Shown here piece by piece: positions 55,280 to 62,636 of a DNA stretch of 64,000 nucleotides. Origin of the DNA: Candidatus Cloacimonadota bacterium (GTDB lineage: Bacteria > Cloacimonadota > Cloacimonadia > Cloacimonadales > TCS61); the NCBI GenBank assembly GCA_030445745.1, contig JASUTE010000001.1, positions 62,001 through 126,000 on the forward strand. The letters are read 5' to 3'. A program made the translations under genes and the position numbers. The notes under the pieces are model-generated. The model was not told the DNA's origin. It ran no database searches and saw only the letters and a program-made list of their open reading frames with translations. The first letter of the stretch is position 1; the number at the start of each line of letters is the position of its first letter.

Positions 55280-56830
55280 TTACCACCAAATCTGTTTTTC
55301 ATTTTTAAAACTAAAAATTCGTTCATTTCCAATATCGTTAGTTTTTGTCAAACGATATATTCTATTGGCTGGAATATTGGAAAAATGTAGGGCCTGTCCC
55401 GTGGTTGTTTTCTTCCCCAGAGAAATCCATTTTTTATGCCAAAAGAATAATTCATATTTTCCCTCTTCACCCTCAAAATATAAGGAATCGGATGGACTGG
55501 TAAACTTAGCTTTATCGACAGCGGTAAAAGTTATGCTCAAATTTTTCGCTTTTTTGCCATCCAAAACATACTGTTTGCCATTTTTTTGTAGAATAAAAGG
55601 TGGGCCTGCCGGAATCACCTTACGGTTATAATAGCAAGGCAGGTACATAATTTCTAAACCCATATCGATGAATTCTGCTGAATTTTGTTCTATCTCTGCC
55701 CAATCTATAGGACGCCAAGCCCCATTGTTGAAAACAGCAAGAAACAGGAAACGTGAATTTTCTGGCTGTGGATATTTCAGGGTATCTAATTTCACAACAA
55801 TATCGTTTACTTTAGTATAAAACGGGGTTACATCGCGGCTGAATTTACTTCCTAACCATGGAGGTATTCGGTCGGCATTGTTTTGTTGAAAAGCCAGATT
55901 TTGCTGCTGCTTCCGAAATGATTTGCGGTATACTTTGGCAACTTTATGCGCTAATTCATACTCTCCCGGGTTTACTTCGCACCCCATAAAAGGAATGGTT
56001 TTGCCATCTAAAGTTATTAATGCATTCCAGACATGGTTGTTATTTGAATCTGCCCAATAGGGAGTATAATCTGCAGCTACACAGATACCATTAGCTCGCA
56101 TAGCATAGATAGCAAAGGTGCTCATATCCTCACACCGTCCTTTGCCGCTTCTTAGCATTTGCATAAAACTTTGGTCGGTAGGATGCAGATAATATTTGCT
56201 ATCGAATTTAACCCAACTTTTCAATTTTTCGTTTATATAAGTTGCAGCTTCTATCATATCTTCCGGGTTTTCTAATTTTTGCGGCAAATCCTGATATTCT
56301 TTTAAGAAAAATTGGCGCCAATTTCCTATAGGTTCGTTATTAACGCGATAGGGTAGAATGTATTCTTGGAATGATTGATAAGGAAACTGTTGTGCCCAGG
56401 GTTTATTTTTCCAAGCTTGATATGCTAATTCCACATTATTTATCAGATACTGAGAAGAAATTGCTTGTACATCTTCTATTTTTTTTGCTTTGTCCCAGTG
56501 CAATTTTCCATATTGATTTTCCAGGGAATCCATAGCTGCTTTAGCTTTTTGGTAGGAAGCATAATCTTCTATATGCCACTCTATTTGATTGTTTTGTGCA
56601 TCGAATAATCCAAATTCAAAATAATGGTGTCCCTCTATATTTTCCAATAAGAAATATAAAGAACTCAACTCTAAAAAATTACCTTTATTCTGAAAGTAGT
56701 TAATAGCTTTTTTTAGTTCTAAGCTATTATCACCAGCAGCTTGCAATATTTCTTGGAAAACAGTGGGATAGCTGATGGTGACACAACCTGCTATAGCTAA
56801 AAACAAAGATAAAATTATTATCTTTTTCAT
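55280..56830 (-). CDS. Transglutaminase-like lipoprotein
   Basis: A 516-residue lipoprotein (Cys16 in LAIAGC) with a transglutaminase-core in the middle: Cys233 in GKGRCEDMSTFA and His266 in NNNHVWNALI. The third member of the triad is not obvious. The N-terminal 200 residues are helical and the C-terminal part is beta-rich. Possible roles include protease or cross-linking activity at the envelope; none is proven. The start overlaps the aroDE-like stop (4 nt). Confidence 0.8.
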   Translation of the reverse strand: MKKIIILSLFLAIAGCVTISYPTVFQEILQAAGDNSLELKKAINYFQNKGNFLELSSLYFLLENIEGHHYFEFGLFDAQNNQIEWHIEDYASYQKAKAAMDSLENQYGKLHWDKAKKIEDVQAISSQYLINNVELAYQAWKNKPWAQQFPYQSFQEYILPYRVNNEPIGNWRQFFLKEYQDLPQKLENPEDMIEAATYINEKLKSWVKFDSKYYLHPTDQSFMQMLRSGKGRCEDMSTFAIYAMRANGICVAADYTPYWADSNNNHVWNALITLDGKTIPFMGCEVNPGEYELAHKVAKVYRKSFRKQQQNLAFQQNNADRIPPWLGSKFSRDVTPFYTKVNDIVVKLDTLKYPQPENSRFLFLAVFNNGAWRPIDWAEIEQNSAEFIDMGLEIMYLPCYYNRKVIPAGPPFILQKNGKQYVLDGKKAKNLSITFTAVDKAKFTSPSDSLYFEGEEGKYELFFWHKKWISLGKKTTTGQALHFSNIPANRIYRLTKTNDIGNERIFSFKNEKQIWW

Positions 56831-58155
56831 AATTTGCCCTTCAATTGTTTAATGAAATATTTCAACTGTTCTTCTGCCTGCCAATACCAGAATTGTTGAC
56901 CAGAAACAAACTGAAGTGAATTTTGCTGACAGAATTGTACTAATTCAGTTGGTTTTTTCTGGTAGGGAAGATCTATAAGTTTTGTGAATTTAGGAAGCAT
57001 TTCTTGCTGCAATGATGTTGTAGAGGTGCCTCTCGGTGTGCAATTTACCAACAAGTGATACTGAGAAATTGGAGCAGAAGTAGCACTTTTCAAGTTAAAT
57101 TTTTTTATAAATTTCTGCAGTTTAGTTTTGTTTCTACCATCTACGTATATATTTTCTTTAAACTTTTTAGCTGCCAATAAAAAGGTTGTAGCTGTACCTC
57201 CGTAACCCCACAAGAGAATTTTATGATGTTCATTTATCTGCAAATGTGTTAAAGCTTTTTGGAAGGCAATGATGTCGGTGTTTGCAGCAATATTGCTAGA
57301 TGGCAAAAACAGATTTATGGGTTGTTTTTGATCTAATTTTTTAGCTATTTTTTCTTTAAACGGCATAGTTATTGAAAAACCCAAAAAACCGCTGTTTCCC
57401 AGCAGCCAGTCCCAGAAATCATTAAAATTATCGCAGTAAAAGGGTAGGTAAACAGCGTCATAGTTGTGGCTATTGAAGTATTGATTATAAAATTCCAAAC
57501 CTAAAGATTTTGCAACCTGCTCTCCTCCTACTATGCCTCCAATGCTACTGTTAGCGGTTAGTTTTTTCAATCTGAATTTATCTGCTTCCTGTCTGGTGAG
57601 TTGATTAGGTGCAGTAGGAAATTTTTCCAAACCATAAAAAGTAGCTGCTGCACCCAAAAATTTGTATAAAGCCCTGCTTAATTTTCCTAATTTGCCCAAA
57701 CCAGCCCAAATAACAGGTTTATCGCTTGTTTCTATTAGTTTTTTTATTTGGCCTAATTGTTGGTAACTGTTTATTGGAATTGCTAATTTCAAAAATCTGG
57801 CCGGAAGTTGGTTTGCTAGGGCTATTATATTTTCTAACTGGTTAATTTCCCATTTCCCAAAATTATGATATGACAGCACCAGATTGTGAGAAGGGAGATT
57901 AATTTTTTTATCATATTTAAGAATTTCCCAATCAACCAAGCAGTCATATTTTGCTATCATTTTTTTATAAAATATATTTTTCTGAGTTTTAGCGAAATGT
58001 CTTTTTCCACCCTCATCCGGTTCTCGTATGGTTAAAATTGTTTTTTTATCTACATTTTGGGCAAATTGATTCAAGCTGTGCAGGAAATCTAAGCGATATT
58101 CTTTCCAACTGGTAATATTTTCATTTAAATCGGCAGGTAAGGAACAGATTATCAT
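56827..58155 (-). CDS. Fused type I 3-dehydroquinate dehydratase-shikimate dehydrogenase (AroD-AroE)
   Basis: A 442-residue two-domain protein of the shikimate pathway. Residues 1-200 resemble class I AroD: YRLDF (20-24), ILTIREPDEGG with Arg44, Glu77, His97 in SYHNFG, and the Schiff-base Lys123 in FLKLAIP. Residues about 205-442 resemble AroE: Lys267 in TMPFKEK, Asp294 in NTD, the NADP loop GYGGTAT (317-323) and NCTPRGT. The AroE shikimate-binding motif is changed: GEQVAKSLG replaces the usual hSlSP form. I put the start at 58155, where ATG overlaps the aroC stop as ATGA. Confidence 0.87.
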   Translation of the reverse strand: MIICSLPADLNENITSWKEYRLDFLHSLNQFAQNVDKKTILTIREPDEGGKRHFAKTQKNIFYKKMIAKYDCLVDWEILKYDKKINLPSHNLVLSYHNFGKWEINQLENIIALANQLPARFLKLAIPINSYQQLGQIKKLIETSDKPVIWAGLGKLGKLSRALYKFLGAAATFYGLEKFPTAPNQLTRQEADKFRLKKLTANSSIGGIVGGEQVAKSLGLEFYNQYFNSHNYDAVYLPFYCDNFNDFWDWLLGNSGFLGFSITMPFKEKIAKKLDQKQPINLFLPSSNIAANTDIIAFQKALTHLQINEHHKILLWGYGGTATTFLLAAKKFKENIYVDGRNKTKLQKFIKKFNLKSATSAPISQYHLLVNCTPRGTSTTSLQQEMLPKFTKLIDLPYQKKPTELVQFCQQNSLQFVSGQQFWYWQAEEQLKYFIKQLKGKL

Positions 58156-59450
58156 TGTTGTTTGCGGCTTTCCGCTAAAATTATTTTCCAAATTTTCTCT
58201 ACTGCAGCAGAATTTAGCTGCCACTCTTTGGCTTTTATCTGCAAATTTTGTAATAATTTTTCTTCGCGCTGTATATCTTTCACTGACATCTCTTTTTGTT
58301 TTTTTAGTTTTCCAATCGCCTGTGAAATATGGTTTCTACGAGTCAAAGCAATTAAAATGTCTTCATCGATCTTGTCGATAGATTCGCGTAGATCTGTTAA
58401 GTTCTGGGTTTTATTTTCCACCAGTTTTTGGTAGGAAGCAGCATCTGCCAGCACCAGTTTCACCATAGCGATAGCTGCTGGTATAAGGCGTGGAACTACA
58501 CAGACATCATGCCGACCAGATATGCTAATTGAGGCACTTTTGCCGGATTTAGTGATAGTTTGCTGTCGCCTGGCGATAGAGGGAGTAGGTTTTACTACAA
58601 AGCGGAATTTTATCTGTTCACCAGTGGAGATGCCACCTAAAATACCGCCGCAATGATTGCTAAGAAAACCCTTTTCATTCATCTGATCGTTTGCTTGTGA
58701 CCCAGTTTGAGCTGCTAATGCAAATCCATCCCCAAATTCTATTCCTTTTACAGCTCCTAAAGATAAAATAGCTTCAGCTAAAGCAGCATCTAGTTTTCTA
58801 AAAACAGGATCTCCCCAGCCAGGGGGAATATTATCTATCACAGCTTCCACTATTCCGCCTACTGAATTTTTCTTCTCTTGCACTTGTTGCAGGTAATTTT
58901 CCACTGCAGTTATGTTGTTATCTGGCCACCAAAGTGTATTTGATGGTGGAATACATTTTTTAGCAGCTTTCATTTTTCCTATTTGCACAGCATACATTTG
59001 AATTTTTATATTTTGCAGAAGATAATCGACTATTTCAGCTGCGGCTACCCGACATATTGTTTCTCGGCCAGAAGCGCGGCCACCTCCACGATAATCGAAT
59101 ATCTTAAATTTCTTAAAATAGGAAAAATCTGCATGGCCGGGACGGAAGAGATTTTTTATATCTTCGTAGTCCTGGGAACGTGCATCACGATTGGGGAAAA
59201 TTATACAAATGGGCATACCGGTAGTTATGCCGTCAAAAACGCCAGATAAAATCTGGTAATCATCTGTTTCCTGGCGGGCAGAAGTGAATTTATTCTGTCC
59301 GGGTTTTCTTCTGGCTAAAGCAGATTGCAGCTGCTGATGTGGGAATACCAAACCTGGCTTGATATCTTCCAGTACCACCCCCATCGCTTTTCCATGGCTT
59401 TCGCCAAAAGTGGTAATACCAAAAAATTTTCCCCAACTATTCGATTTCAT
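58152..59450 (-). CDS. aroC: Chorismate synthase fused to an AroQ-type chorismate mutase
   Basis: A 432-residue protein. Residues 1-345 are chorismate synthase (EPSP to chorismate, FMN): GESHG (16-20), RPGHAD (103-108), [13 protein letters not shown] (119-131), [15 protein letters not shown] (264-278) and [10 protein letters not shown] (312-321). Residues about 351-432 match an AroQ (chorismate mutase II) domain: Arg355, Arg371, Lys383, Asp392, Arg395, Glu396 and a terminal Gln432 align with E. coli R11, R28, K39, D48, R51, E52 and Q88. One protein could thus make chorismate and convert it to prephenate. Usual AroC ends near 360-390. The aroDE-like gene follows with an ATGA overlap. Confidence 0.95.
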
Positions 59451-61439: not shown

Positions 61440-62636
61440 ATGGATAGGATTTTAACTATTAACAATCTGCAGACAGCTAAACTGGAGCTGCAAAAAATTG
61501 GAGTGTCACGGCGTGGAATTGAGGCAATGTGCGGTAAAATGCAGAATTTAAATATCAAACTCTGTGATATAGAAATAGGAGCAGCTAATATTTTAAAGCA
61601 AGAGATGCTAAAATTGGGCGGAGATGCTGCTGTTGCAGCTGGAGTGGTAGAAGGTGTGCTGCAGAGTACCGATGTTATTTTAATGGGAAATAGAGTACAA
61701 TTGCAAAAATTGGATCTTTCTAACTACCACAAGTTTCATCTACCAGATTTGGAAGTAAAAATAAAAGAACTGCTAAAGCTATACAGCTCGCACCAGCCCA
61801 CATTGCTAAATTGTAGGGGGAAAGAATTAAAATTGGATACAACTAAAATTATGGGTATTTTGAATGTGACTCCAGATAGTTTTTCGGATGGAGATAGATA
61901 TACCGATAAGGATAAGGCAGTAGAACACGCTCTGCAAATGGTAAGAGAAGGAGCTGAAATCATCGATATTGGTGGAGAATCTACTCGCCCTGGAGCGCAA
62001 CCAGTGTCTTCTGCGCAAGAACTAGAACGAATTATACCAGTTCTCAAAGCTATTCGCAACAAAAGTGATGCCATAATTTCCATAGATACCAACAAAGCAG
62101 AGGTTGCTAAACAGGCAATTTTAGCCGGAGCCGATATAGTAAACGATATCAGTGCTCTGCGCTTTGATGATAAAATGATAGATGTATTAAATCAATTTCC
62201 TAATGTGCCCATAATTTTAATGCACATGCAAGGCACTCCGCGCAACATGCAGAAAAATCCACATTATAACGATGTAATACAAGAAATTTTGACATTTTTG
62301 CAGAACAGAATAAAATTTTGTCAGCAAAATGGAATAAACAAAGACAGAATTATTATCGATCCCGGTATTGGCTTCGGCAAACATTATAACGATAATGTGG
62401 AGATTTTACAAAAAATAGGAGAATTTCGCAGTTTGGGAGTGCCAGTATTGCTGGGAGCTTCCCGCAAAAGCTTCCTAAAAAAAATATATGAAGAAAAAGC
62501 AGAAAAGCGGCTTAGTGGTACTTTAGCTACTACAGCTTGGGCAAGCTGGAATAAAATAGAAATTGTGCGAGTGCACGATGTGAAAGAAAATTTCCGCTTA
62601 TTACAAACTTTAAATGAGATAGAGAGTTTAACATGA
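61440..62636 (+). CDS. folP: Dihydropteroate synthase, long form with N-terminal domain
   Basis: DHPS joins pABA to the pterin in folate synthesis. The core starts about residue 134 with KIMGILNVTPDSFSDGDRY and continues with DIGGESTRPGAQPVS, SIDTNKAEVA, DISALRF, LMHMQGTPRNMQKNP, IDPGIGFGK and LLGASRKSF. The first 130 residues form an additional domain (PILLQGGDAAVAAGVVEG-like central block) known from long DHPS forms such as in Thermotoga and clostridia; its role is unclear. It ends with an overlap onto cdaA. Confidence 0.95.
   Translation: MDRILTINNLQTAKLELQKIGVSRRGIEAMCGKMQNLNIKLCDIEIGAANILKQEMLKLGGDAAVAAGVVEGVLQSTDVILMGNRVQLQKLDLSNYHKFHLPDLEVKIKELLKLYSSHQPTLLNCRGKELKLDTTKIMGILNVTPDSFSDGDRYTDKDKAVEHALQMVREGAEIIDIGGESTRPGAQPVSSAQELERIIPVLKAIRNKSDAIISIDTNKAEVAKQAILAGADIVNDISALRFDDKMIDVLNQFPNVPIILMHMQGTPRNMQKNPHYNDVIQEILTFLQNRIKFCQQNGINKDRIIIDPGIGFGKHYNDNVEILQKIGEFRSLGVPVLLGASRKSFLKKIYEEKAEKRLSGTLATTAWASWNKIEIVRVHDVKENFRLLQTLNEIESLT

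Follow-up and report, generated by a model that had tools for sequence, protein, structure and literature searches.

What does a bacterium gain when its chorismate-producing enzyme is joined to an enzyme that uses chorismate up? The window, a 64,000-nucleotide stretch of a Candidatus Cloacimonadota genome, raises this question through a gene whose product combines a chorismate synthase (AroC) with an AroQ-type chorismate mutase. The features that bear on the answer are:

58152..59450, minus strand: AroC-AroQ fusion gene, 432 amino acids (single frame; Pfam PF01264 and PF01817; AlphaFold2/Foldseek)
58440..59423, minus strand: chorismate synthase domain, Pfam residues 10-337, with FGESHG, RPGHAD and GGRASGRET motifs; closest fold 1um0
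58155..58391, minus strand: AroQ chorismate mutase domain, Pfam residues 354-432, with R355, R372, K383, D392, R395, E396, S428 and Q432; superposes on 1ecm
56827..58155, minus strand: AroD-AroE fusion (type I dehydroquinase and shikimate dehydrogenase), PF01487 and PF08501 over cut-off
61440-62636: folP (dihydropteroate synthase)

The fusion frame runs uninterrupted for 432 codons from an ATG start. Chorismate synthase occupies residues 1 to about 343 and is followed by a short linker and the mutase, from about 350 to 432. Both Pfam matches are complete and over their cut-offs, Chorismate_synt at 392 bits against 27 (E 1.6e-117) and CM_2 at 63 bits against 27 (E 3e-17). This bears out the initial annotation, which had described a full AroC followed in one frame by an AroQ domain and had placed the latter in residues 351-432. 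It had also called the architecture uncommon, and this too holds. We found no description of the pairing in open-licence papers. The protein has no prephenate dehydratase domain (PF00800, Pfam), and beyond its mutase domain no CM_2 match occurs anywhere in the genome, which is 2.04 Mb long and 99.3% complete.

The chorismate synthase part scores above the NCBIfam equivalog cut-offs (398.8 against 321 and 377 against 212; PRK05382 and TIGR00033). Across 40 sequences H19 and H106 are nearly invariant, and G16-S18, R125 and S127-T131 are invariant. The domain is a full-length member of the chorismate synthase family, from which FMN-dependent activity and a tetrameric state are predicted.

The residues R11, R28, K39, D48, R51, E52, S84 and Q88 of the E. 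coli mutase correspond, in that order, to the eight mutase residues listed above, the last of which, Q432, is also the final residue of the protein. The set is therefore complete, as originally claimed, with two corrections: Arg355, Lys383, Asp392, Arg395, Glu396 and Gln432 had been named correctly, but Arg371 is one position off the invariant R372, and S428 belongs to the set and had been omitted. In E. coli numbering, R11, R28, K39 and R51 are present in all 49 full-length homologues, E52 in 48, S84 in 43, D48 in 38 and Q88 in 32. In one family (f10, L050-L060) the mutase domain stops just before the Gln88 position, and to judge from these sequences its activity may be low or dependent on help. 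Among the sixteen closest pairs dN/dS was about 0.05-0.36 for the mutase domain, indicating purifying selection, and 0.06-0.17 for AroC.

The AlphaFold2 model has a mean pLDDT of 85.4, with about 90 across the mutase helices. After the last AroC helix (319-344) come the three helices of the AroQ fold (351-386, 393-409 and 414-431). Foldseek paired the mutase part with the E. coli mutase structure 1ecm at an rmsd of 0.9-1.0 Å, and 1um0 was the closest match to the AroC part. The model is of a monomer, and the intertwined dimer of AroQ enzymes lies outside it; to our knowledge every AroQ enzyme pairs with a second copy. Domain score, three-helix fold and residue set place the domain in the AroQ-alpha family, and they predict mutase activity and a dimer.

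The fusion is not an isolated gene. The ATG of the AroD-AroE gene overlaps its stop codon by four bases (ATGA), and AroD-AroE lies directly downstream in 43 of the 44 loci checked. By domain content the two linked genes thus carry four activities, AroC, AroQ, AroD and AroE. AroB is encoded elsewhere in the genome and is present in 28 of 40 relatives. With two linked genes and a distant aroB, the shikimate pathway appears to be retained. The AroD-AroE protein scores under the cut-off of the equivalog PRK09310. By eye, the Ser-x-Ser shikimate-binding motif of its AroE part reads S-L-G, and the catalytic lysine and aspartate look retained. A transglutaminase-like protein, probably exported, is encoded at 55280-56830, and about 19 loci retain it downstream of AroD-AroE.

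The initial annotation proposed that the fusion commits flux at the branch point, towards phenylalanine and tyrosine and away from tryptophan and folate. Neither half of this proposal fits the genome. Profile searches that were positive in all 14 control genomes found no prephenate dehydratase here and one among 40 relatives; that relative (G027, L064) has the fusion plus a separate P-protein (mutase-dehydratase). Prephenate dehydrogenase (TyrA) was found neither in this genome nor in any of the 40 relatives, with all 14 controls again positive; two weak PDH_N matches in relatives were glycerol-3-phosphate dehydrogenases. There is thus no recognised route from prephenate to phenylalanine or tyrosine.

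On the chorismate side, the search covered the PF00425 enzymes (TrpE, PabB, MenF and EntC) and MqnA. No PF00425 enzyme was found in this genome; five of the 40 relatives were positive. MqnA was also missing here and was found in four of the 14 controls, as expected of a patchy pathway. We therefore reject competition with tryptophan, folate or menaquinone branches for this genome, since no recognised branch is present to be starved. The presence of folP implies use of pABA, yet PabB was not found.

Other possible fates of prephenate were also considered. CmoA gave no match over cut-off in this genome, and the matches below it are probably other methyltransferases. There was no plausible candidate for PheC: two SBP_bac_3 matches sit in frames of more than 740 amino acids that resemble sensor proteins, and not in a free enzyme of about 250; a strongly diverged PheC may have gone undetected. 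The neighbourhood of aroB showed no prephenate enzyme, its genes being mostly glycosyltransferase- or flippase-like by eye.

We consider the protein to be a bifunctional chorismate synthase/chorismate mutase, with a probability of roughly 0.8; both activities and the dimerisation are inferred. It is most likely that both fused activities work. The N-terminal domain would convert EPSP to chorismate, and the C-terminal domain, paired with a second copy, would convert chorismate to prephenate. In this lineage the shikimate pathway would then in effect end with prephenate and not chorismate, and as no known enzyme diverting chorismate was found among those searched, the fusion would have little to compete with. 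What counts against a bifunctional enzyme is that, with prephenate dehydratase, TyrA, CmoA and a plausible PheC all absent, the mutase step has no known purpose.

Direct transfer of chorismate from the AroC site to the AroQ site would be an addition to bifunctionality, not an exclusive alternative to it. The two sites catalyse consecutive steps, and in the model only a short linker separates helix 319-344 from helix 351-386. However, a fusion of consecutive enzymes, CM-CDT, gave no kinetic evidence for channelling (PMC10520331), and with no recognised competing branch there would be little to gain. We regard channelling as improbable.

It is similarly doubtful that the mutase-like domain serves chiefly as a sensor that controls chorismate synthase on binding chorismate or prephenate, with catalysis secondary. 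The AroQ domain of the Bacillus DAHP synthase is regulatory, and 5go2 and 5gmu were among the Foldseek matches. The lack of a known prephenate consumer in the genome, the loss of Gln88 in family f10 and the variability of D48 would also suit a sensor. Against this, the fused domain is the sole CM_2 domain in the genome and retains all the essential charged residues, and we know of no feedback control of chorismate synthase.

A different reaction on the AroQ fold, such as an elimination like that of isochorismate-pyruvate lyase, is less probable still. PchB structures (2h9d, Foldseek) are among the matches of the predicted fold, and the isochorismate lyase model PRK07075 matches below its cut-off, but the mutase models score higher, the protein has every residue of the mutase catalytic set, and the genome lacks an isochorismate synthase (PF00425).

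An assembly error or a chance read-through of two genes, for which the unfused neighbouring aroC and aroQ genes of one relative (G024) might speak, can be dismissed, because the same join recurs in 56 independently assembled species genomes, with full-length copies 43-61% identical to the window protein, and in named public MAGs.

The initial annotation had raised a mistaken assembly of two genes, and on this point the join stands. Among 124 Cloacimonadota species genomes 58 had matches: 56 have both domains in one frame, G024 has adjacent separate genes and G033 has the mutase only. Neither part was matched in the other 66. The junctions of the fused frames were inspected in homologous loci, and the full-length copies fall into ten families. 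In an alignment-based scan almost all of the nearest named records came from Cloacimonadota, Candidatus Tenebribacter and Candidatus Zophobacter among them. Among the sequences sampled for the AroC tree, the 49 full-length fusions fall into a single group, whose stem has low support. Two records labelled Armatimonadota (L068 and L069) also have AroC-mutase fusions, with tails 58-59% identical and the same gene neighbourhood, and are probably mislabelled Cloacimonadota MAGs.

Outside Cloacimonadota, AroC and the mutase are mostly encoded by adjacent separate genes. The aroC gene of Dehalococcoidia overlaps one for aroQ-pheA, and a separate mutase gene follows aroC in a Bathyarchaeon and in two Clostridia (L098 and L105). 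In another locus (L108) a mutase-AroE-AroK fusion lies beside aroC. In G024 (L061) the genes are arranged aroF-aroB-aroA-aroC-aroQ; its AroC is distant from that of other Cloacimonadota and may have been gained by horizontal transfer. As aroC and aroQ lie side by side in other phyla, the Cloacimonadota fusion probably arose by the joining of neighbouring genes in an early ancestor, the simplest origin we can infer. In three rumen Clostridia (L115, L116 and L122) a single frame encodes AroC-AroQ-AroK. In their relative L147 AroC is separate and AroQ is fused to AroK, so the rumen clostridial join of AroC to AroQ arose independently.

The domain pairing, of which we found no description in open-licence papers, joins the maker of a branch-point compound to its consumer. 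It has been kept across Cloacimonadota and has arisen independently on at least one other occasion. The absent prephenate consumer is nevertheless a stronger and more interesting lead than the fusion itself. That a conserved pathway should stop at prephenate with no known user points to a missing enzyme, and part of the aromatic-compound pathway in this genome appears still to be discovered. It is quite possible, although we would put it at rather less than an even chance, that the Cloacimonadota pathway reaches prephenate and that phenylalanine, tyrosine or another product is finished by an enzyme unrelated to the known dehydratases and dehydrogenases. If so, the AroC-AroQ fusion marks a pathway with an undiscovered last step.

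Several known systems resemble this one in part. In the enteric P-protein (AroQ-PheA) and T-protein (AroQ-TyrA) an AroQ-alpha mutase is likewise fused to a neighbouring pathway enzyme. There, however, the mutase is N-terminal and its partner uses prephenate, whereas in Cloacimonadota it is C-terminal, its partner makes chorismate, and the protein lacks a prephenate dehydratase, TyrA or ACT domain. In the DAHP synthase-AroQ fusions of Bacillus and Porphyromonas the mutase is also joined to an upstream shikimate enzyme, but DAHP synthase catalyses the regulated opening step of the pathway, while AroC acts directly ahead of the mutase. Like the M. tuberculosis AroQ-delta mutase (MtCM), which depends on a partner to be fully active (PMC7762937), the f10 mutases have no Gln88 equivalent. 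The f10 domains retain the lysine, whereas MtCM does not; MtCM is also a free-standing protein, and its activator is DAHP synthase. The fusion of the rumen Clostridia has the same one-frame order of AroC and AroQ as that of Cloacimonadota, but with a distant AroC and an additional C-terminal shikimate kinase. Dehalococcoidia (with aroQ-pheA), the Bathyarchaeon and G024 keep the same gene order in separate genes, which is likely to be the state that preceded fusion.
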